From Stomoxys calcitrans (Eukaryota > Arthropoda > Insecta > Diptera > Muscidae), in NCBI RefSeq assembly GCF_963082655.1, contig NC_081553.1, positions 127,501,736 through 127,565,735 on the forward strand: a DNA stretch of 64,000 nucleotides, in the 5' to 3' direction. Below, piece after piece: positions 9,270-26,150 of this stretch. Made by a program: the position numbers and the translations under genes. The notes under the pieces were generated by a model, which had not been told where the DNA came from, ran no database searches, and saw only the letters and a list, made by a program, of their open reading frames with translations. Every line of letters starts with the position of its first letter. The first letter of the stretch is position 1.

Positions 9270-10432
9270 CTTGGCGAAGGATAACAAACATTTAAAACAA
9301 TTTGTCGGAAATTCGATAACGATGTCTGCGTGTCTGTCCGTCTGTTGTAATAACGCTTCAGTCTTCAAAAATTGAGATATTGTGCTAAAGTTTGGTGGAG
9401 ATTCGTAGATTGTCTAGGTGAAGTTTTTGAACGAGCAAGATAGCATCATATTTAGATACAGCTTCAATATAGACCCATCTCCCGGTTAAGAGTCTTAAGA
9501 CAATAAAATCAGTATTTGTTATCCGATTTCGTTGAAATTATGAAACGCGAGTTCTACTAAAGCCCCCCATATCCCAAACGAAATAGTCCATATCGGGCCA
9601 TAATTAGATATAGCTACCATATAGATCGACCTACCGATTTAAGGACGCGCTTATCACCAAATTTTGTTGCCATTTAGAACAGTGACATTCTGTCGGCATT
9701 CGCAACGAGTTTGGTCTAGCTGCTATATGTACCTATCTGCCGATTAAGGTTCTTAAAAACATTAAAGCCCCATTTTTTACCCGATTCTCTAAAACTTTTA
9801 ACAGTGAGTTACACTAAGCCTCTTGTTGTCCCACTCGAACATGGTCCAGAACGGACCATATTTACATATAGCTGTCTTATAGACCTATCTGCCAAATTAG
9901 GGTTTTAAGCCAATAAAAGCCCCATTTGTTTCGCGATTTCGCTGAAATTCAAAACAGTGTGTTGCACTAGGCCTCCCATTGTTCAATCTGCATATAATCC
10001 AAATCGGATCAAATTTGAATATAGCTGCCATCTACTGCCCGATCTACTGATTTAGAGTATTAAGCTCATAAAGAAGCCATATTTTCCTATTTTGATAAAA
10101 ATTTTGAAAATAGAGTTGCACTAGGCCACCCGATATCTGTATCGCGTATGGTCCAAATCAGACCAAATTTGGATATATTTGCCATGTGGACCGATCTGCA
10201 GACCTAGCATCATAAGCCATAAAATCCTCATTTATAACCTGATTTCCTTAAAGTTTTAAACTGTGTCTTATATAAACTAATGGCTACCTGAACCGAATAT
10301 GAACCAAATCGGTCCATTCTTGGACATTAATATAGATATAGTAGGTTTTTAATAGTGAAGGATAATAAATATATCTATTGTGATGGATATCCAAAGTTCG
10401 CCGCTACCTAATTCAATACGTTTTTACTCGTT
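9270..10432 (+). repeat. TRE-B-like repeat, diverged copy without left end
   Basis: The copy begins near 'aacaaacatttaaaacaatttgtcg' and has a GTCT tract at about 9330-9345. It has about seven diverged units with 'gatatagct.ccatatagacc' cores and ends with an eroded AATACGTTTTTACTCGTT. A fresh TRE-B copy starts 4 bases later. Confidence 0.65.
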
Positions 10433-10435
10433 TTT

Positions 10436-11372
10436 TATACCCACCACCGAAGGATGGGGTATATTCATTTTGTCATTCTGTTTGCAACACATCGAAATGT
10501 CCATTTCCGACCCTATAAAGTATATATATTCTTTGATCAGCGTAAAAATCTACGACGATCTAGCCATGTCCGTCCGTCTGTTTGTTGAAATCGCGCAACA
10601 GTCTTTAAAAATAGAGATATGGAGCTGAAACTTTGCACAGATTCTTTTTTTTGTCTATAAGCAGGTTAAGTTCGAAGATGGGCTATATCAGACTAAATCT
10701 TGATATAGCCCCCATATAAATCGATCCGATTTAGGGTCTTAGACCTTTAAAAGAAACATTTATTATCCGATTTTACTGAAATTTGGGACAGTGAGTTATG
10801 CTAGGCCCTTCGACATCCTTCGTAAATTTGGCCTAGATCGGTTCAGATTTCGATATAGCTGCCATATAGACGGATCCTCCGGTCTAGCGTCTTAGGCCCA
10901 TAAAAGCCACATTTATTATCAGATTTTGCTAAAATTTGGGACAGTGAGTTGAGTTAGGTCCTTCGACATCTTTCGTCAATTTGGAACAGATCGCTTCAGA
11001 TTTGGATATAGCTGCCGATGGACCGATCCTCCGATGTAGAGTCTTAGGCCCACAAAATTTGGATATTGCTGTCATGTAGACCGATCTCTCGGTTTTAGGT
11101 TTTGGGGCCATAAAGGGCGCATTTATTATCCGAATTCGTCGAAATTTGGGACAGTGCGTTGTGTTAGGCTCTATGACGTCGTTCTGCAAATTGGCCCAGA
11201 TTTGAATATAGCTGCCGTATAGCCCGATCTCTCAATTTTATGTTTTGGGCCCATAAAAGGCGCATATATTGTCCGATTTCGTCGAAATTTGGGACAGTGA
11301 GTTGTGTTAGGCTCTTCGATATTTTCCTTTAACTTGGCCCAAATCGGTCCAGATTTGGATACTTTTACTTGT
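10436..11372 (+). repeat. TRE-B repeat
   Basis: The copy starts TATACCCACCACCGAAGGATGG at 10436. It contains the GTCC zone near 10569 and four to five units. The right end is shortened: a unit breaks off in 'agatttggata' and joins directly to CTTTTACTTGT at 11372, without the GGCCGAACTTAACG palindrome. The second Helitron starts 11 bases later. Confidence 0.8.
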
Positions 11373-11382
11373 TTTATTTCTT

Positions 11383-12001
11383 ATAGCTGAACCCGGCCCG
11401 CTCCGCTGCGCCTTCTTTTACTTTATATAGAACAAAATCAAAAAAAGCGACCCCAAACACTTGGCCCCAACAATTGATTAGGAAATTAGTTTTCCAACCT
11501 CAAATACTTTTAATTTAAGCCACATATTACCATAGTTGGTAAATTTGTTCTCTTTGAAGAAGGGGCGGTGCCCTCAATACATAGTCACACACTTGGATAT
11601 CAGATCCGTATTCTACTCCCAATTACCTTTATTTGAGCCCCATATGTGAAAGGGGTAGACCTCCAGAATATTGGTCCCGAAAGTGGGTATAAATTTTGCG
11701 GAGCTCTTAGCCCTAAAAACTATCAGCATCGTAAAATACTCTCAAATGTCGTTTATTTGAACCCCAAATTGCCATTGGTCTAAAAATTGGATATCAAGTT
11801 CGTTTTCTAATCTCAAATACCTTTCATTTAAGAGGTATGGGCCCTAAAACTGTCAAAAGCGAGCTCCACTCTCTTTAAGACCCATATTGTCATGATGGGA
11901 TAATACGTCCTATTTGGGAGTTGCTATGGTGGTGGGACGTCCCATTGACAGTTGGTCCCTATTGTTGATGTGAGGTTCATGGTCTACTCCCAAATACCTT
12001 T
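11383..12001 (-). mobile_element. Helitron copy 2, part left of the BEL/Pao insertion
   Basis: On the minus strand this is the CTAG end of the Helitron family (here mutated to CTAT at 11386-11383). The same GC-rich 'cgcagcggagcgggcc' segment and 'aatacctttaatttaagcc' repeats follow. The copy is cut at 12001 by the retrotransposon and resumes at 21841. Its last five bases (11997-12001, CCTTT) form one half of the target-site duplication. Confidence 0.75.
11997..12001. other. Target-site duplication (left), CCTTT
   Basis: The five bases before the left LTR are CCTTT, identical to 21841-21845 directly after the right LTR. Five-base duplications are usual for BEL/Pao integrases. The pre-insertion site is restored as the common Helitron motif 'aaatacctttcatttgagcc'. 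Confidence 0.95.
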
Positions 12002-12446
12002 TGTACAAGTCCAGTAGATCCTTCTGTAAGAAAGTGGACTGTATTTAAATGTAGAGTGAATCTCCCAGACAAGTAGCAGCAGAGGAAAAAACCAAGAAAA
12101 GAAAAAGGCCAAGTTTCAGTTTTTTTGGTGTTACAGTGTATTTGGGTGTGTAAGCTCTTACCGCCTTGGATGGTTTTGCACAAGTGTTTTAGGCAGTGTT
12201 AAAGGCAGCATGGACATAATTAATGCCTAAACATAAAATTCTATTTCAGCATATGCAATTGATGGGGAAGTGAGACAGATAGGGGTGCAACTTAAATGAT
12301 TAGGGTAGCCAGGTGTCAGATTGCAATCTGTTATACTAATAATTAATTTCAAATAACAATTCAGGAATTCATTAACTTATATCTAAAGTGGTAGGTATAG
12401 TGGTTGAAGATAGTTGTTGTTGAACCGGGTTGAACTAGGTTCAACA
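12002..12446 (-). repeat. 3' LTR of the BEL/Pao element
   Basis: 445 bp. It matches 21396-21840 except at 12345 (A here, C at 21739). Read in element sense it begins TGTTGAACC and ends GTACA. The first 29 bases contain a 9-bp perfect inverted repeat (12438-12446 against 12418-12426). Confidence 0.97.
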
Positions 12447-12459
12447 TGCCGCCCGCCTT
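12447..12459 (-). other. Candidate polypurine tract
   Basis: Directly upstream of the 3' LTR in element sense the sequence is AAGGCGGGCGGCA, mostly purine with a GGCGGGCGG core. This is the position of the plus-strand primer in LTR elements. It is less pure than many tracts, so the exact limits are uncertain. Confidence 0.6.
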
Positions 12460-12473
12460 GCAAGGATGCAATT

Positions 12474-13377
12474 TCAATATTGACAAGCTCCAGAGATAGT
12501 CCAGCCAAAAATTGTACTCTGCGCAATGGGCATGTTAGAGGAGGTTTGGATCATTCCTGCTCGCAGAATCTTAGGTATATTGTCGTTGGCCAATATGATT
12601 TCCACATTGGAAGGCTTGTAGAAGTGAGGGTCAGCTAGATTGGTGAGGTGGTTATAGATACTTTGTAGTTTTGGCGTATCGGTTATCGATGGTAGAGTTG
12701 TACGAAAACTCTTTTGTACTAAACCAACTATTTGAATTTTGGCTTGAGCGTCATAGTAAGACTCGAGATTTAACGTACAATATTCCTTATTGTCTCTGCG
12801 CGTAGTGCGCAGGTGTAATCGATCCACTAAAGTCTTTAATATCACCGTCTGTGCCTCTCCAGAATTCAGTAGTAGCCTCGCCTTTTCTGGATCGGTTGAG
12901 GTCTGGACCCGGGCAAGAGCCGTTGGTAAAAATATGTGGGCTCGAGCTTTGTTGCTCAGCCGTTCCTTAAAATGCGTTCGAGGTCGACCGAACGTAGAGC
13001 TGGGTTTAGATTGTGCGCGTCGCTGCGTTTGGTTTCTCTCCTTATAATTCTGCGAACGGGAGCCTGAACCATATCGTTCAGTTGGGTCTGGAGATTTTTT
13101 AGATGATTTTAAACGGTGTTGATGTGATGTTTTAGGGGAATCAAGTTTGTCCATATGAACCATGGTATGGTGGTTTAGCCGACAGACCATACATTTATTT
13201 CTGGACGGGCACCAGTTGCGTTTGTGTGCTGTACATAGACAGTTAAAACAAAAACCCTTTTCACGTATGACATCTCTGCGTTCTGATACGGTCATTCTTT
13301 GGAAAGTTGGGCAGTTTTTTAAGAAATGTCGGTCTTTACAGATGCGACATTTTGGGATGCCAGATTTGGTAAATGAG
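12474..13377 (-). CDS. ORF2: zinc-knuckle plus protease-like protein, main exon of a predicted spliced gene
   Basis: This is the main exon of a predicted two-exon gene whose start codon is at 21291-21289 (304 residues after splicing). The frame is uninterrupted. The first Met inside the exon is at 13295 and would give only 273 residues, losing the first zinc knuckle. In spliced numbering there are three knuckles: C14-C17-H21-C26, C47-C50-H55-C60 and C66-C69-H73/74-H78. A basic Ser/Lys/Arg-rich linker (about 80-150) follows. Then comes a domain paralogous to the gag-pol protease region: LPTAL motif, LLNSGE around 172-177, and a C-terminal IFGWTISGA motif. The catalytic position is Asn175 (codon AAT, 12866-12864) where gag-pol has Asp479, so it is probably not an active protease. 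Over the knuckles it shares about 25 of 67 residues with gag-pol, so the split is old. It could be a Gag-interacting or RNA-binding accessory or dominant-negative factor (inference). It is not env-like: no signal peptide or membrane segment is seen. Confidence 0.85.
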
Positions 13378-13400
13378 CTGAAAATGTAAGGGTTATTGGT
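13377..13400 (-). promoter_or_regulatory. 3' splice site for ORF2
   Basis: In element sense the sequence is a pyrimidine-rich CCCTTACATTTTCAG followed by the exon at 13377. The AG occupies 13379-13378. It lies about 50 nt after the pol stop codon (13433-13431) and before the first ORF2 zinc knuckle. Joining it to the donor at 21281/21280 gives one continuous reading frame (AG from exon 1 plus C from exon 2 make a Ser codon). Confidence 0.75.
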
Positions 13401-13430
13401 TATGTGAACAGATTTTGTTGATGCTAATAA

Positions 13431-16400
13431 CTAGATGCAAGGCAGTATACACAGCTTGACTAAGGGGCGTGTCAAGATTCCGTTCTGTGTGCGTATCTCA
13501 GCAACACGAACGTTTGAATCCTGACCGGTGAAAACTTTCACCACCCTCCCCAGACACCATTCAGTGGGGGGGAGGTTGTCATCTTTGACAATGACAAAAT
13601 CGTCTTCGGCTAAGTTCTGTTGAGCGGATTTCCACTTATACCTTCGTTGTAACTCGCACACATACTCATTCTTCCATCTCCTAGCAAACAATAACTGTAT
13701 ATTTTTAAGTCGCTGCCAGCGGTTCATCAATGAAAGGTTATCCGTATATTCCTCAGGAATTGCCATCAAAGGAGCACCTCTGAGTAAATGGCCAGGAGTC
13801 AGAGGAATCAAGTCATTCGGATTCTCACTGATCGGAGAAAGAGGTCTTGAATTCAAAACACTTTCGATTCGGACTAACAGGGTGGAAAACTCTTCAAATG
13901 TAAATTTAAGGTTAGAGGCAACTTTCCTCAAATGAGCCTTCATGCTCTTAACTGCAGCCTCCCACAAACCACCCATGTGTGGAGCGTGAGGAGGTATAAA
14001 ATGCCACGAGAAATTATGCATCCCATACTTTTCGGCAGCGGACTTCTCAGCAACCTTCAAAAATTCTCTATACTGAGCCATAAGCGATCTGCTTGCCCCT
14101 ACAAAGTTAGTCCCATTGTCAGAGAAAATCTTTTTCGGAAATCCACGTCGTCCGACAAAACGATTAAGGGTGGACAAAAACGCCTCAGACGTCAAGTCAG
14201 AACAGACCTCCAGATGAACAGCCCTGGTAGACAAACAAACGAAAATTGCCGCATATCCCTTTTGCAACTTTGCATTCCGCAGTCTAGACGTTTTCAATTC
14301 GAAAGGACCTGCAAAGTCCAGTCCGGTGTTGGTAAAGGGTAGGGAGAATGTGCACCGTTCCGAAGGTAAAGCAGCCATCAACTGATTCCTTACTCTGTGT
14401 TTATACACGGTGCATATCTTGCAGTTTCGGATACAGAAGCGGATAGCACTTTTCACACGAATTATATAAAATTCCTGCCTAATTGCGCGCAGCATTGTCT
14501 GATGTTCAGCATGTAGTAAGATTCTATGAGTATATTCAATGAAAAGTTTGCAAAATCTCGAGTTTTCTGGCAGTATTAAAGGAAATCTTTCATTATAACT
14601 CATATCGGAATTAGCCAAGCGGCCGTTAACCCTGAGCAATTTGTTCTCATCGAGGCAAGGGTTAAGCGTTAGAAGTCTGCTTTTAGAACTTATAGGCTGA
14701 CCAGATTCAAGTGCTCGGTATTCAGCGGGAAAATGTGAAATCTGTGCCAGTTGGATCAGCCTTAACTTGGCGCATGTAATTTCTTGGGGAGTAATAAACC
14801 CTTCTTGTACTTTGGTGTCGTTGATTTTTCGGCAATTTCTAACGAATCTTAATATGAAACAAACAACACGAAGTGCTCGGTCAAGAGAAGAGAACCGATC
14901 CAAAACATCTTCCAGTTGAATCTGTGTCTGACAGACTGTGATTTTCTTCTCTAGGGCTGGTTCCTTGTATGTGGTTTGTTTCGGCCAAAATTCAGCGGAT
15001 TTGAGTAACCAGTGAGGACCTTGCCACCATAGAGAATTTTTTTCGAGTTCAGCAGCGGTGCATCCCCGAGTTCCAATATCAGCCGGATTTTCATTGGTTG
15101 GAACATGCCTCCAATTCACATTCCCCACGTTGTCTAATATCTCCGAAACTTTGTTTGCCACAAAAGTCTTCCAGTGAAATGGCGGCTTCTGCAACCAGGC
15201 CAGCGTTATGGTAGAATCTGACCACAGGTGAATATCAGATACGGTCAAGGGCATATTGCGGCAAACAGACTTCAACAATTTCGAGAGTAAGGCTGCCCCG
15301 CATAACTCTAGTTTCGGCAAGCTTATAGTTTTCAATGGCGCAACCTTGCTTTTTGAAACCAATAAAAACGATGTAGTAACATTCTCAGAAGTAGAAAGGA
15401 CATAAATGCAGGCACAGTATGCTTTTTCCGAGGCATCACAAAATCCATGAATTTGAAATTTGCACTCGGGCGAGTAATGAATCCAACGAGGAACTCTCAG
15501 ATTCTCAATATCAGAAAAATTCGATATAAATGTATTCCATTTTTCGGAAGAATGTTCTTTGACCTCTTCATCCCAGTCTGTCCCGTCTATCCAAAGTTGT
15601 TGCACTAACATTTTTGCCACGACAATAATTGGGGCTAACCAGCCCGCTGGATCGAAAATTTTTGCCACAATGGATAGAATCTTGCGCTTGGTAATAGGTG
15701 TGGAGGGAACAGTTATGCTTGATACTTTATAGAAAAATTGATCTGTCATAGCATTCCAGCGAATGCCCAATGTTTTTGTGTCGCTGGCTTCCTCAAATTT
15801 AAGGAAATCTTCGGTTAGAAGATCCTCGGGGGGCAAATGTTTCAATATTTGCGGATGATTCGCAGTCATCTTTTTGAAAGGAAATCCTGCAGTGGCCAAC
15901 AAATCTATCAGTTCCAGGATGTATGACCTGGCTTCAATTACAGTGTGTCCACCGGAAAGTATGTCGTCTACGTAAATTTGGTTTTGTAAAATAGAAGAAG
16001 CCGCAGGATGAGTATTTTTTCCATCCTCGCTTAATTGTAACAATGTTCGTATGGCCAAATATGGTGCACAGTTCACACCAAATGTAACAGTTTTCAAGCA
16101 ATAATCAGAAATTTCTTCAGTTGGGGAAGTTCGAAACAGTATTTTTTGAAACGATCTGTCATTCGAATGAATATAAATTTGGCGGTACATCTTCTCGATG
16201 TCGCCGTTAAAAACGTATTTGAAAAAACGCCAGCGAAGAATGACATTCATCAAATCATTCTGTAGTGTTGGACCAGTATATAGAATGTCGTTTAAGGAAA
16301 TGCCGGTGGAAGTTTTCTTTGAAGCATTGAATACCACTCTAACCTTAGTGGATACACTTTCAGGTCTAACCACAGCATGATGTGGCAAATAGAAAGAACA

Positions 16401-18644
16401 AAAGCGAGAGTTTTCGCAGATTTCAGTTGGTTGCGTAGGTTCCATATGATCTAATCGTATATATTCAGCTAACACTTTTGTATACTCTGCTTCTAATTCT
16501 GGAAATTTCCTCAAAGTCTTCTCCGTACGTAGATATTGTCCTAATGCTGCACGGCGTGAAGATCCCAGTATCACTTCAGATGAAAGCTCCTGTCGGAAAG
16601 GCAATCTGACTTCATACTTCCCGTCTGGTAGACGCTTCGTTGTCTTTCGGTAGAACTGTTCACAGTAAGCATCCTCTTCCGTAATAGGAATTGAGGTAGG
16701 AACTTCCTCGATTTCCCAGAATCTTCGTAGCTCTTCGTTCAGTGTGTCAGGAGAAGTCACCCAGGTAGCAGACGCGGTTACTGTGCGCGTTCTGAGAGGA
16801 CCACTAATTAACCAGCCAAATGCGGTCTCTTGCGCCAACAGATCCCCTGAAATGTTAGGTTTAACCCCAGGCCTAATAATGGACGGTAACACGTCACTTC
16901 CCAGAAGCATATCTATTGGACCTGGTTTAAAAAATTTCGGATCCGCTAGATCCAGATGGTTCAAACCAGACCAGTCCGAAATTGGTGTAGGAAGACCTGG
17001 CATTAAATGCTTCAAACTCGAAACAACAATAACTGATGTGCTCAGTTTAAAATCAGAAGTGCGAGCCTTTAACGTAAGGGAGCATAGCTTGGAGGAGTTT
17101 TCGAGTACAGTACCTCCCAGTCCTGAAATCCTCGTAAAGGATTTCTTAGTCGGAATAGACAGTTTGTTAACTATTCTGTTTGATACGAAAGATTCCTGTG
17201 ATCCTTGGTCCACAAAAGCTCTGATAGTGAACAGAGTACCCAAATGTTCTATGTCGACCAAGGCAGTGGGCAGGACAGTTTCCTCCCCCGATTCTGTGAA
17301 ATGTGACTGGACATTGTACGTTTCATCATACGCGGCGTCAGATGTCGAAGGCTGGTCCTCGTATTCTGTATCTATATGAAAAGTCTCCGTTCGATATTGA
17401 GTAGTTGCGGTTCCTGCCTTTATTGGTCCAGGATTTCGCTCATGGCTTGATGTATTACCGGAGTCAGGATGCAGCACTGTGTGATGTTTCTGTTTGCACT
17501 TCTGACATACATTCTCACTTTGACAGCTATTGTCAACATGTCCGTAAGAAAGACAATTTGCACAAATCTTATTTGCAGTCACGAATTTCATCTTTTCATT
17601 ATGTGGCCAGGACTTAAATGTAGGACAGCCCCGCACTGCATGGTTGAGGCGACAGACTCTACAAGGACGATAAGTGGCATCGGTCTTAGCGTGGAAACTT
17701 TGAGTTTTCTGTGTACTGGAAGACGCATTGGAAGGTTTTCTCATATCGGAAATCGATTCCAACATACTCAACCGTCTTGATATGAAGTCATCCAATTGAG
17801 ACCAACTGGGCATCTGTTTATGATCGTGAATAGAGTTCTCCCAGGCAGCTAAAGTTTCCTCGGGTAGTTTGGAGGAAACCCAAAAAACAAGAAATGGGTC
17901 CCATGATAAAACGGAGATGTTATACGTCCTTAGGACTGCAAGACAATTATTCATGGTATATTGCAGATTTCTCAAAGCTTTTCCTCTCTCTGAGGAAACA
18001 TTCTCGATTTCAAAGATTCTCCGTAGTTGGTGGTTGATGAGGATGCGTTTATTCTCATAACGCAGGCGCAGAGCCTCCCAGGCCAAGTTAAAATTGTCAT
18101 CGGTTAGAGCGAACTGTTTAACGATCTGATTAGCTTCACCCCGAGTTTTTGCCCTGAGGTGGAACAGCTTCTGAGCAGGGGATAACTTGGGGTGTTTGGT
18201 ATAAATGGCGGTAAACATGTCTCTGAAACTGGGCCACTTATCGTAGCCGCCACTAAAGCATTCGGTATCACACGGTGGAACTTTCAACGCAAAGCCGTTG
18301 TCATTTACTATTCCTGCCTCCGGCATCTCGCGTGGTCTAGCCTTTTCAAGCTTTTGTCGTTCAATCTGAACTAGATCGAGAATCGAAGCTTTACAATTCT
18401 TGTACGATTTACATGATTCCAAAAACTTGGCATGAATTGATGCCCGAATAGTTTCAGTGTCTTCCGGTTTCTCGGAAGTCATTTCCGTCTCATAAATCTG
18501 GACTAGTTGGCGCCAACGACGCTCCAAATCGTCGAGTTCGACTTGTAGACTGGAAGACGTATGGTCCTCAATGGGAATATCAGCAAAATTTGCACAGAAT
18601 GTGACCACTTGGTCCGAAAAAAAAATGAACTTCTGCGAACTCAT
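13431..18644 (-). CDS. gag-pol: BEL/Pao gag-pol polyprotein, 1737 residues
   Basis: A single uninterrupted frame encodes the replication polyprotein, acting in cytoplasmic virus-like particles and then at integration. Domains in order: gag with a DUF1759-type region (about 120-300); three zinc knuckles (C328-C331-H335-C340, C361-C364-H369-C374, C380-C383-H387/388-H392); aspartic protease with D479-Q-G (about 455-620); reverse transcriptase (about 700-950, with D815 and YVDD at 891-894); RNase H (about 1065-1190, D1070, E1113, D1143); integrase with an HHCC zinc region (H1373, H1377, C1408, C1411) and catalytic D1443, D1509, E1562; a DUF5641-type tail (about 1640-1737). No gag/pol frameshift or stop is needed, which is usual for this superfamily. 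The ATG at 18644 is the first Met after an in-frame TGA 12 codons upstream and has G at -3. All key catalytic residues are present. ORF2 lies downstream in the same frame, beyond one TAG. Confidence 0.97.
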
Positions 18645-21280
18645 TTCAATAAATTCAGAAGCGGAATACAGTAAACCTCAATTCACCAAGGAATTAAAAC
18701 GGGGCGAAAGAAAACAACTAGCAATTCAAGTACCCAAATTTCAAGGTAATTCAATGGCCATACAGATAGTATCCTGATTAAGAGAATGCCAATCAGCTAT
18801 CCGACTATCCTCTTAAATGTAGCAATAGATGACAGTCCCACAAATGCCTCTGGTACCTAAGGATTGGTGCACGATTCCTAACACGAATGAGAGAGAAGTC
18901 GCTGAATTGCTCGGGGAAAGGGAATGTGTCTAGAGTTGGAGAAAACAATGGGCCAGACTTGAAACCGACGTAGGCAATTCCCTTACAACAGGAATAAAAG
19001 GGATTCTGAAAATTCCAACTTATTCGTCCGAACCTTTTTCTATATAGGATCCCCACCAAATCCAATGCGACTAAAATCCATATGCGAATCTCGCAATATA
19101 TATCTCACAATTGTATAACTCTATCAAAATTTTAATAAACCAAAATTCCAAAGATAGATATGAATTCAGAATTTAATATTCAACATAAATATTAGATTTA
19201 CAGATGACATAAATCCATGCATACATATATAACTCCACTCTCCCTTTCAATCGCAGGTGAGATGGGCATAGAAAGCAATTCCAAAGATCTTTCCTCTCTT
19301 AAATTCTTAGGAGGGTAGGAACAAATAAGAAGTCCTAATAGGTTCTCTCCTATAGCCTCATAAAATTTTATTCAGTTATGAAAAGGATGCAGTTTTCCTG
19401 GTTTTTCTTCAGATAGAAATTCACAAAATTAATTCCTATAACAGACATTCACGAGCATGCGATACAGTAGGGTAAAATTCCAAAAATATTAAAATTGTAA
19501 CAAAGTATTAAAATTGCAACAAATAATAAAATTCCAAAATAATAGATATTTCCGAATATGAAAAAAAAGGAACTCAGTCTTTGTGTATAATCAGTAGGAA
19601 CGGTTTTCTAGCTCGTCTCTTTTTTAGACACAGAGCTGATATAAACATTCATCAACCTTTCGAATTCCATGCATGAGGTATTTAAGTACAATCAAATAGG
19701 TATGTATTCAAATATAAATCTGGATATAATTTCCAATAAATCTCGATATAGATCAGGAGTCTGTATTCCTTAGATTGTGTGATCCATAAAGCTGAGTATT
19801 CCTATACGAATATCTTAGAGGGTTTTTTTTTTCTTAGCCACCAGAACTAATTCCTCTTTAAACCTACCGCTTTATGTGCATTACTTTTTTTAATTTGGCC
19901 TCTTCTACTTTGTCACAAATACATGCACTCACCATACCAATCGCCTTTTTAGAACAGGTTTCAATCACTCCTCCCAGCCTTCGTCTTCGCACTGAACGCC
20001 TTCAATACCATGTGAACTCCAACGTGCTTCTTTGCACCATTGACTTTAAATCTCTGCCCAGATTTTAATTCGAATTTGTGCACAAATGATACTCGAATTT
20101 TGTTAAAAAATTATCACTTTTTGATAAATCAACTTTCCTTAAACCAAGTGGTCTTAAATCTTATTCGATATTATTAACAAATTCTCCTTCTTTTTTTTTT
20201 TTTTTTAAAAAAATATCACATTCCAATTTCATATTTTCCTCTTATATTCCTGTCATGCCAAATTCATCTTTGTTTAATAACTATTAATATCGTAGAACCA
20301 GTATATTTCAACAATGTTTCCTGTAGAAATTTTTCACTTATTTTCAGTTGTTCGATTCCAAATAATTTAAATTCTTGTTGCTGTAAACAATATGCATTCA
20401 TTACATGCTTCTTCGTACACACTTAGACTAGAATGATGGGTCGATGACAAAATTGCATGTAGCTAACCTGTTCCTCTGATAGTCGAAACAAGTTGTTTGT
20501 TGGTGGAGCCAAGAATTTGGAGAGTCAATGCGTCAAAGCATGCGTGGGTGAATCGAATCGATCTTTATCCCTATAAGCGGATAAAAGAGAGTCTCGTAGA
20601 GTCAACTGCGATGTCCGGGCGCTGCAGCGGCAATGTTGGTATTTGCAGAACTCGTCGATGTGCCTTTGACTGCGGCGTCGTTGAGATAGCAGTCGCGCCG
20701 GTTAGATGAATGTTAGTGATGAGAGCCACTAGATTATGACTCCAAGAGTACATAGAAGTCGATTTTCAAAGAGACAGTTCTGCAGGGAATTTAAGTGCTA
20801 TGAACTTATGCAGAGTATTCTGTTTCAAGAGTACAGACACTCTTTTCTCATAAAATGCATATGCAAAGTAAGTATTTACAACGAACCATAAAGCAAAGAG
20901 AGATGTAAACCAAACTTCGGTCTTCGTCTTTCCCCCTTCCTTCCTTGACGCAATTATTTCAAGGTTATGCCAATAACCATGTAAAATGTAATCATCATGC
21001 TCGTGAAGCAATAACGTTATTGTACTTCTCGATCAAATAGTGTCAAAGCGCTTTCGTGAAAAGCAGATCTTGTACAAATCGAATAGACAACAAAAACTCT
21101 TACTCTTACAGAAGCTGTGCCAGCTCAAGGCATAAATATGGGGATACCGTGGCAAAATTCCCCAGAGTAGAAACAAAATCTATTTCCTTCAAACAGTTCT
21201 CCAAGTAAAAGATTTACTTTCAATCGAAATTCTTACTTAACACAACCCTGTCTGTTCACACACCAAAAACTCTTACATAC
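18645..21280 (-). other. Long leader of the BEL/Pao element, probably intronic in the ORF2 RNA
   Basis: About 2.6 kb between the 5' splice site and the gag ATG. No frame longer than about 90 codons is present in element sense and no domain is recognised, while many short ATG frames would hinder simple scanning to gag. A candidate 3' splice site is GGCATTCTCTTAATCAG with its AG at 18775-18774, 129 nt before the gag ATG and behind a CTGAT branch-like motif. Splicing there would remove most of the leader from a gag-pol RNA. If the MEN start codon in exon 1 is then used, it opens a short frame that stops before the gag ATG. Confidence 0.6.
18774..18796 (-). promoter_or_regulatory. Possible 3' splice site upstream of gag
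   Basis: In element sense GCTGATTGGCATTCTCTTAATCAG ends at 18774: a branch-like CTGAT, a short pyrimidine tract and AG. It could pair with the donor at 21280 to shorten the gag-pol leader. This rests on consensus only. Confidence 0.4.
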
Positions 21281-21284
21281 CTGT
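21271..21284 (-). promoter_or_regulatory. 5' splice site in the retrotransposon leader
   Basis: In element sense the sequence is ACAG/GTATGTAAGA, a near-perfect metazoan donor, cutting between 21281 and 21280. It lies 115 nt downstream of the 5' LTR, the usual place for the shared donor of subgenomic RNAs in retroviruses and env-bearing LTR elements. Confidence 0.8.
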
Positions 21285-21291
21285 TTTCCAT
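21281..21291 (-). CDS. ORF2 exon 1 coding part (start codon and 8 further bases)
   Basis: In element sense the ATG at 21291-21289 is in a strong context (A at -3, G at +4) and encodes Met-Glu-Asn plus two bases before the splice donor. It supplies the start codon for ORF2 when the 7903-nt intron 21280-13378 is removed. The frame is phase-matched to the acceptor at 13377. A further ATG upstream in exon 1 is closed after one codon (ATG AAG TAA at about 21364). Confidence 0.75.
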
Positions 21292-21375
21292 AGTAGTCTT
21301 TTTAGAATATGCGAAAGGTGTTTGTTTTTTTTTTTTGCGGTGGACGTGATCCGAATTACTTCATTCGCTGATTGA

Positions 21376-21395
21376 AAATCCGGTTCGAAGGACCA
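21376..21395 (-). other. Primer binding site for tRNA-Tyr
   Basis: The 20 bases directly abutting the 5' LTR are the complement of a tRNA 3' end. Read on the plus strand they match the fly tRNA-Tyr 3' sequence including CCA, with one mismatch (T at 21384 where I recall C). The tRNA sequence is recalled from family knowledge. There is no spacer between LTR and primer site. Confidence 0.8.
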
Positions 21396-21840
21396 TGTAC
21401 AAGTCCAGTAGATCCTTCTGTAAGAAAGTGGACTGTATTTAAATGTAGAGTGAATCTCCCAGACAAGTAGCAGCAGAGGAAAAAACCAAGAAAAGAAAAA
21501 GGCCAAGTTTCAGTTTTTTTGGTGTTACAGTGTATTTGGGTGTGTAAGCTCTTACCGCCTTGGATGGTTTTGCACAAGTGTTTTAGGCAGTGTTAAAGGC
21601 AGCATGGACATAATTAATGCCTAAACATAAAATTCTATTTCAGCATATGCAATTGATGGGGAAGTGAGACAGATAGGGGTGCAACTTAAATGATTAGGGT
21701 AGCCAGGTGTCAGATTGCAATCTGTTATACTAATAATTCATTTCAAATAACAATTCAGGAATTCATTAACTTATATCTAAAGTGGTAGGTATAGTGGTTG
21801 AAGATAGTTGTTGTTGAACCGGGTTGAACTAGGTTCAACA
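21396..21840 (-). repeat. 5' LTR of the BEL/Pao element
   Basis: 445 bp, the right-hand copy on the plus strand and the 5' one in element sense. It should carry the promoter, but I could not place a convincing TATA box or poly(A) signal. It differs from the other LTR only at 21739. Confidence 0.97.
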
Positions 21841-22697
21841 CCTTTCATTTGAGCCGCATTTTTCCATAGGGGCGGCCACTCAGTGTCTTGGCTTTGAAAA
21901 TATATATCAGATGCGAGTTCTACTCTGAAAAACCTCTTTTTTCAGCCTCAAATTGCAATGGTCAGCAAATACTTCCTGTTTGGGTGGTGTTATGGAGGTG
22001 GGGTGGCCCCATAGACACTTTTCCAGAATATTGATATCAGATTCTTGCTTTACTTCCATAGACCTCCCATTTGAGCCCCATATTGCTATGGTCGAAAATT
22101 TGTCCTCTTTGTTCTCGGGGATGGGCGCCCCCAAACACTTGGTCAAACATCTGGATATCAGATTCGTATTCTACACTCAAGTACCTTTTATTTAAGCCCC
22201 ATATTGCGATGGTCAGTAAATAAGTCCGTTTTGGGGAAGGGGTGGACCCCCAGAAACTTGGTCCCACATTTGAATATCAGATTCGTATTTTACTCGCAAA
22301 TACCCTTCATTTAAGTCTCATATTGCTATGGTCGGTTTATATGTCCGATTTGGGGGTGTTTTAGGGGTTGGGGTGTTTGGGTTTGGGTGTATATATATAT
22401 GTGGTAGGTTTTGGGGGTGGAGCGCCCCCCTAGGTACCCCATCCGAAATTTTGATATCAAATTTTTGTTTGTACGTAACTATAAGAGAGCACCACCCATC
22501 TCCGAGATCTCGCGTTTCTGAAAATTGGGGTTAGGGGAAGGGTCCGCCCCCCTTCAGATATCAAAAAATTTAGTACCCTATTTTCACCACGAGATCTGTT
22601 AAAATTTCAAGAAAATCGGTTCAACCGTTTCTGAGTCTATAAGGAACACACAAAAAAACAAACAAACATACCTACAAACAAACACAAATTGATTTTG
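21841..22697 (-). mobile_element. Helitron copy 2, part right of the BEL/Pao insertion
   Basis: This resumes the Helitron cut at 12001, starting with the duplicated CCTTT. It has several units of about 130 bp with 'ccatattgc.atggtc' cores and the 'cgaaaatcggttca' motif near 22607. It ends in the 'acacaaattgattttg' segment that belongs to the TC end. The last bases of that end are missing and TRE-A follows at once. Without the retrotransposon the copy would be about 1.5 kb. Confidence 0.75.
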
Positions 22698-25379: not shown

Positions 25380-26150
25380 GAAGGACAAAATACGTATGTT
25401 CAAACTGTAATAACTAAGGTTCACAAATGACAACACTATTGCAAATTATCCAAATTTGATCATGTGGTACTCGTCCAGAAAAGCGTTTTGCAAAATTTTG
25501 GCAAGATTGGTCAAAAAATGCTTTTGCAGTGGCTCTAGACGTGAAAATCGGGTGACATACATATATGACAGCTATATCTAAATCTGGGCCAAATTCTATG
25601 AAATTAACCAGTAAATTAACCCTGCCAAATTTCGAGAGAATCGGTTAACAAATGACCATTTTATTGCAGTATTACTGCAAATCGGACGAACATATATTTG
25701 GGAGCTATATTCAAATCTGAACCGATTTTATCCAATTTCAATAGGCTTCGTCTCTAAGCCGAAAAACTTGCCCATACCAAATTTGAAGACGATCGGACAA
25801 TAATTACGACCTGTAATTTGTGCGCAAATTAACATGGACAGACGGACAGACAGACAGACGGGCAGACGGACAAAGCAAAATTGAATCAGGAAGTGATTCA
25901 GGCCGAAAAACTTGCCCATACCAAATTTGAAGACGATCGGACGACAATTACAACCTGTAGTTTGTGCACAAATTAACATGGACAGACGGACAGACAGACA
26001 GACAGATGGACGTAGCTAAATTGAATCAAAAGGCTATTATTCTGAGTCGATCGGTATACTTATTAATGGGTCTATCTCTCTTCCGTTTGGGTTTTACAAA
26101 TTATTTCATTAAGTTATAATACCCTGTACCACAGTAGTGGTGTAGGGATT
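25380..26150 (+). repeat. TRE-C repeat with an internal duplication
   Basis: The copy shares 'caaactgtaataact', 'tttgcagtggctctaga', 'tatatgacagctat', 'gaatcggttaacaaatgacc' and the closing ACAGTAGTGGTGTAGGG with the fuller copy at 60531-61347. The segment from 'gccgaaaaacttgcccatacc' through the 'acagacggacagac' tract occurs twice, starting at 25758 and 25902 (period 144). Confidence 0.75.

Follow-up and report, generated by a model that had tools for sequence, protein, structure and literature searches.

A predicted spliced third gene encoding a zinc-knuckle pseudoprotease, with covarying complementary arms at the intron ends, in a BEL/Pao element of Stomoxys calcitrans

A third gene predicted to be spliced from the leader

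A 64-kb window of Stomoxys calcitrans genomic DNA (the whole stretch that was analysed, 64,000 nt of contig NC_081553.1, assembly GCF_963082655.1) carries a young, intact BEL/Pao element on its minus strand, with long terminal repeats (LTRs), a target-site duplication (TSD), a 1737-codon gag-pol and a third gene, open reading frame 2 (ORF2), which is the last in the element and lies 27 nt from the 3′ LTR. The initial annotation had predicted that this gene is expressed from a spliced subgenomic mRNA whose start codon immediately precedes the splice donor, and every position on which the prediction was built, i.e. an ATG at 21291, a donor edge at 21281, the opening of exon 2 at 13377 and a frame of 304 residues, was found in the sequence (Table 1). 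The ATG stands, as had been claimed, in a strong context (A at −3, G at +4). The exons of 11 and 904 nt give 305 codons including the stop, that is 304 residues in a single open frame, and the 7.9-kb intron encloses the whole of gag-pol. The first zinc knuckle (residues 14–26) does precede the first internal methionine (residue 32). This Met32 is conserved in at least 90% of the relatives and would permit a shorter second product via leaky scanning.

An NCBI protein model of S. calcitrans (P0001; 304 residues, starting MENSSFTKSG) is identical to the predicted product. The joined exon 1–exon 2 sequence of the window family had no match in the genomic DNA with up to three mismatches allowed, and all six copies of this family found in the genome include the intron end; P0001 is therefore a spliced model. 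In the junction searches of the genome, the models P0016 and P0004 likewise looked like spliced models. The five further copies of the window family are near-identical to it and lie between different flanks, indicating that the family has recently been active. All five keep ATGGAAAACAG followed directly by GTATGTAAGA, and nine diverged families with an identified leader have their own versions of the ATG, GT, AG and phase, so that the conservation check proposed in the initial annotation was passed.

A protein search of the genome with P0016 gave at least 139 matches. When sorted by identity and frame length, the matches listed fall into about 17 families; most of these matches were without an internal stop, at identities down to about 30%. 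The 5′ and 3′ pieces were compared for nine families, and the 5′ LTR could be placed in seven. In all seven, an ATG lies 97–132 nt after the LTR, with 11 nt (17 in F9) to a phase-2 GT donor; exon 1 is 20 nt long in F11 and 11 nt in F8. A phase-2 donor with a short coding exon 1 (11–20 nt) was thus seen in all 10 families for which a leader was identified, the window included, in a count that left out F3, F12 and F15–F17. The acceptors after pol match in phase 2 across families, and the exon-1 residues of the NCBI models agree with the DNA: MEKS in P0016 (F1), MGKS in P0004 (F5) and MNNNNKS in P0042 (F11). In P0017 (F4), MEKS also matches the DNA and the acceptor lies 12 nt further on. Judged from these comparisons, the predicted splice is very probably real.

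In F15–F17 (L088, L090 and L092, which are 30–35% identical to P0016), ORF2 is preceded by an acceptor-like TAG and, a few nucleotides after it, by an in-frame ATG, for which reason the start codon of these families seems to be in exon 2; a switch of start-codon placement is possible. In the Haematobia irritans model P0050, a trypsin domain runs into a sequence ending IIMDKS and then into ORF2, and this model may represent a chimeric transcript.

One copy of F8 (L008, L078) is a 1,990-bp insertion from which the intron is exactly missing. It consists of LTR, primer binding site (PBS), leader, ATGGAGAAAAG joined directly to CACATCATC, ORF2, purine tract and LTR; its LTRs are identical at 479 of 480 positions, its internal part measures 1,031 bp, and the TSD ATGCC is present on both sides. 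A 251-nt probe across the junction was used against the other F8 copies. Eight of them matched probe positions 1–158 and 157–251 at places 7.2–8.3 kb apart, a ninth holds 41–158 and 157–251, and a tenth matched the second part and no more than a short stretch of the first; among the F8 copies matched, the unbroken probe was found in the intronless copy alone. Two other F8 copies, read directly, have the donor GTATGTAAGT, and full-length F8 loci have an acceptor ending in ACATTCTAG directly before CACATC. As the intronless copy has LTRs and a TSD, spliced RNA must have been reverse transcribed and integrated by the retrotransposon machinery. The locus L094 was considered as an internally deleted F8 copy and rejected; its leader lies elsewhere.

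The existence of this one copy in F8 could suggest that the NCBI models derive from intronless genomic copies and not from spliced RNA. However, a pattern for the junction, designed to cover F1, F5, F8 and the first acceptor of F4, matched the genome once, at the F8 copy itself (its reversed control gave no match), so that none fitting the exact pattern was found for F1, F4 and F5, and there was none for the window family. Moreover, an intronless copy flanked by LTRs and a TSD itself requires a spliced RNA. Such an origin of the models is contradicted by these searches for the window family, F1, F4 and F5 in this assembly, and we hold it to be highly improbable.

The assignment of the element to BEL/Pao, made in the initial annotation, was borne out by gag-pol, in which the Pfam families DUF1759, Peptidase_A17 and DUF5641 scored above their curated cut-offs (RVT_1, rve and Integrase_H2C2 were below theirs), as well as by the LTRs, the TSD and a PBS after the 5′ LTR. 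A direct-repeat search found 300 nt of the LTR pair to be identical, and one difference was seen by eye. TGGTCC lies directly 3′ of the LTR in the seven families with a placed 5′ LTR; the PBS of Belpaoviridae is given by the International Committee on Taxonomy of Viruses (ICTV) as complementary to tRNA-Arg or tRNA-Gly (PMC8742986).

Table 1. Features of the element in the window (positions count from the first nucleotide of the window)
Feature	Position	Strand	Basis
TSD AAAGG, upstream copy	21841..21845	.	by eye
5′ LTR, 445 nt	21396..21840	-	direct-repeat search; limits read from sequence (TG...CA)
PBS TGGTCCTTCGAACCGGAT	21378..21395	-	sequence reading
Conserved leader motif GGATCACGTCCACCGC	21337..21352	-	leader comparison between families
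Exon 1, coding part ATGGAAAACAG	21281..21291	-	sequence; other copies; N-terminus MENS of P0001
Splice donor GTATGTAAGA (predicted)	21271..21280	-	sequence; kept in other copies
5′ arm of intron-end helix TGTGTGAACAGA	21251..21262	-	complementarity, covariation, duplex energy
gag-pol, 1737 codons plus stop, within intron	13431..18644	-	open reading frame and Pfam search
3′ arm of intron-end helix TCTGTTCACATA	13401..13412	-	complementarity, covariation, duplex energy
Splice acceptor CCCTTACATTTTCAG (predicted), ending at 13378	13378..13392	-	sequence
Exon 2, rest of ORF2 with stop (12476-12474)	12474..13377	-	sequence, open reading frame, NCBI model
Three zinc knuckles (residues 14-78)	13155..13349	-	alignment to relatives; motif by eye
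Retropepsin-fold pseudoprotease (residues 150-304), NSG replacing D-x-G at 12866	12477..12941	-	fold search, alignment
Purine-rich tract before 3′ LTR	12447..12460	-	by eye
3′ LTR, 445 nt	12002..12446	-	direct-repeat search and reading of sequence
TSD AAAGG, downstream copy	11997..12001	.	by eye

Between the PBS and the exon-1 ATG, GGATCACGTCCAC (GGATCGCGTCCAC in F2) was seen in eight families (window, F1, F2, F4–F8), in a leader that is otherwise largely divergent around it; the motif is a candidate packaging or dimer signal. Beside the element, window positions 9850–11361 hold five copies of a 172-nt direct repeat (64–76% alike), and two 99-nt direct repeats at 25758–26000 (95% alike) end in GGACAGACGGACAGACAGACA.

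The third-gene product

The ORF2 protein is 27% identical (E 1e-33) to the element's own nucleocapsid–protease (NC–PR) segment. The nucleocapsid/protease likeness put forward in the initial annotation thus stood, but the protease part has to be corrected in that the catalytic Asp is absent. A fold search assigned the retropepsin fold to the product. When 58 ORF2 proteins were aligned, one had a gap at the catalytic position and the remaining 57 had N (45), S (11) or H (1) and in no case Asp; the catalytic Asp was present in 117 of 120 gag-pol rows. The linker is basic in the 54 of 56 ORF2 proteins in which it was measurable. In sequence, the ORF2 protein is a copy of this element's zinc-knuckle/protease part that has diverged and has a basic linker. 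No Pfam family scored above its cut-off in ORF2, no PDB chain matched it by sequence, only the fold search placing it, and tblastn revealed no relative in IMG/VR. It does not resemble an envelope protein, being an NC–PR homologue with a retropepsin fold, and no signal-peptide or membrane prediction was made.

The ratio of nonsynonymous to synonymous substitution rates (dN/dS) between F1 and F2 was 0.05 for NC and 0.09 for PR, values computable for this pair only, as the others were saturated; ORF2 is apparently under purifying selection. In the phylogeny, 53 ORF2 proteins together with P0081 grouped in a single clade with a support of 1.0, which sits on a long branch and has a sister-group support of 0.19. 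As ORF2 is a partial duplicate of gag-pol sequence, it might be thought a decaying recombination remnant which is read by chance via a cryptic splice. This idea is scarcely credible and is contradicted by our results, namely by the frames without internal stops among most of the matches listed, over about 17 families and down to about 30% identity, by the single well-supported clade, by the low dN/dS in F1–F2 and by the conservation of exon 1 and of the intron-end arms described below.

From the zinc knuckles and the basic linker, we infer that the ORF2 protein is an RNA-binding regulator. A different role, in which the product is self-limiting, was also considered: the dead protease would pair with active monomers, or extra NC would enter the particles, and transposition would be reduced. 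Retropepsins are dimers to which each chain contributes one Asp, and Ty1 is restricted by a self-encoded truncated Gag; the loss of Asp in 57 of 57 proteins while the fold was kept, together with the low dN/dS in F1–F2, would be in line with such a role. A mixed dimer is, however, uncertain because of the low identity to the element's own NC–PR, and the knuckles and linker point to RNA instead. Self-limitation is thus a possible, if doubtful, function, and an RNA-binding regulator is preferred.

Complementary arms at the intron ends

The intron carries complementary arms at its two ends, and these arms with their compensatory changes are an addition to the initial annotation. When the two intron ends were compared in nine families, the most complementary stretches gave a helix that begins 15–36 nt into the intron and ends 20–50 nt before exon 2. 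It comprises 12 pairs in the window and 11 to 13 in the other families except F5, which has 17 Watson-Crick pairs. TCTGTTCACA, on either strand, occurs at only these two places in the window. The group-I families pair TGTGAACGGAT with ATCCGTTCACA, the window having A-U where others have G-C, and F9 and F11 pair GTGTGAGTTG with CAACTCACAC. When the arms of F8 were added to give a set of 10 families, 93.3% of 120 cells were paired and both sides had changed in 5 of the 12 pairs. In none of 500 shuffles was the share of paired cells, the number of doubly changed cells or the covariation score as high, but the pair types were matched in 41 of 500. The predicted duplex energy was −20.4 kcal/mol for own arms versus −14.3 kcal/mol for swapped partners, and partner permutations did as well in 0 of 20,000 trials overall and in 4 of 20,000 within the eight group-I families. 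That the arms can pair in the unspliced RNA is supported by covariation.

Conserved complementarity between 5′ and 3′ RNA sequences, as in the cyclization of Ty1, was thus present. It may be that the splice is real but that the arms have a function in reverse transcription, for which they would link the two ends of the genomic RNA; their proximity to the splice sites would then simply reflect that arms and splice sites alike lie at the element ends. According to excerpts of PMC4974528, CYC5 of Ty1, downstream of the PBS, pairs with CYC3 near the 3′ end, as shown with compensatory mutants. In the present elements, too, one arm follows the PBS and the other is close to the 3′ end, and spliced RNA has neither. 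Unlike CYC5:CYC3, the arms lie within an intron, next to its ends, and are removed by splicing, and their pairing is deduced from covariation rather than from mutants. The closeness of the helix to both splice sites in nine families argues against cyclization, as does the F8 cDNA copy, which shows that an arm-less RNA can be reverse transcribed and integrated. Cyclization is therefore kept as a tentative, minor alternative to a role of the arms in splicing.

Proposed expression and relation to known systems

We consider it very likely that the third gene is expressed from a singly spliced mRNA, that the arms aid the splicing of the long intron and that the product is an RNA-binding regulator. 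Transcription is assumed to start in the 5′ LTR. The short leader exon would provide the AUG and 3 2/3 codons, and the 7.9-kb intron with all of gag-pol would be removed, the pairing of the arms most likely holding donor and acceptor together and thereby promoting the splicing of a very long (7–9-kb) intron. A part of the RNA would be left unspliced to serve both as the genome and as the mRNA for gag-pol. The ORF2 protein would bind RNA via its knuckles and linker and may act on the export or packaging of unspliced RNA, or join Gag or the protease via its dead protease fold.

Several observations weigh against this reading. No leader was present in the fetched pieces of F10 and F14. M-x-x-S/G stands directly before exon 2 in only 21 of 34 NCBI-named relatives from Stomoxys, Haematobia and Musca (manual count), the other 13 including the longer MNNNNKS form of P0042; P0002 and P0019 join a different upstream exon to the same acceptor, and P0006, P0037 and P0038 begin at an internal methionine. 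The spliced cDNA copy is known from one case only, in the sister family F8. As regards the arms, 54 of 500 shuffles had at least as many doubly changed pairs, a simple pair count over nine families gave 12.8 for own versus 11.5 for swapped arms out of 15 columns, and within single families 0 to 11 of 400 shuffles gave a helix as good, the maximum being in F2, where another A/T-rich helix also ranks higher once the first intron bases are included. As the arms were chosen as best complements, the slide control is biased, and as the families are moreover related, the tests are strong but not independent.

The gag ATG lies 2.0–3.9 kb past the 5′ LTR in the window (21395–18645) and in five other families. 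In the six families measured, the unspliced leader contains 23–54 upstream ATGs before gag, and the translation of gag is therefore itself a puzzle. Close gag-pol protein models begin with an MSSQKF-like sequence. A gag mRNA spliced from the ORF2 donor is a possibility that was also weighed; on visual inspection, the sequence immediately 5′ of gag had no conspicuous acceptor.

Rev/Rex-type regulators are small RNA-binding products of spliced RNA, and the env gene of Rous sarcoma virus takes its AUG from the leader exon. The leader-exon AUG and the small, putatively RNA-binding product of a spliced RNA resemble both by analogy; the Rev/Rex-type traits of the ORF2 product are its basic linker and zinc knuckles only. 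A wider scheme can be drawn in which this BEL/Pao lineage has a two-state RNA genome. The covarying helix would either join the splice sites, leading to a regulatory protein of duplicated NC and dead protease, or circularise the unspliced genome, and the protein would favour the unspliced state in an independently evolved Rev-like feedback. As a whole, this scheme appears distinctly unlikely.

The closest precedent is found in insect errantiviruses of the ZAM and Beagle subclades (Metaviridae), whose main env exon, located 3′ of pol, is joined by splicing to a short exon that encodes a peptide and lies upstream of gag, as described in excerpts of PMC12992720. The element in the window likewise has a third gene after pol that appears to be spliced from a leader exon, but it belongs to another superfamily, BEL/Pao, and its product combines NC with a dead protease and is no envelope protein; intron-end arms are not mentioned in these excerpts. 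The ICTV profile of Belpaoviridae describes LTRs, a PBS, one gag-pol ORF and Pao-type domains, all of which the window element has, with gag, pol and an env-like gene in some members; splicing and a second gene of NC/protease type are absent from it (PMC8742986). In human genes, pairs of conserved complementary regions tie long-range intron pairing to pre-mRNA processing (PMC8052449, in excerpt), whereas here the pairing is in a mobile element with the entire gag-pol looped out. An accessory gene, sORF2, is also described for MDG1-group elements, insect LTR retrotransposons without an envelope (PMC11952523, in excerpt); unlike ORF2, it encodes a short membrane protein, and in the excerpted text its transcripts are without evidence of splicing. 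A text search found no word beginning with ‘splic’ in the 2011 BEL/Pao survey (PMC3118150) or in the Achilles paper (PMC4580426), and no published account of this BEL/Pao gene was found in the open PMC literature, where part of the matching papers was covered and Repbase lay outside the search.

These results indicate that a retrovirus-like third gene, obtained by splicing and with its start codon in the leader exon, also occurs in BEL/Pao elements, and that a gene of this type can encode a pseudoenzyme which descends from a BEL/Pao protease. The natural cDNA insertion in F8 shows spliced RNA of this kind to have been copied and integrated, and the covarying arms at the intron ends provide a testable idea for how an LTR element might balance its spliced and unspliced RNA.

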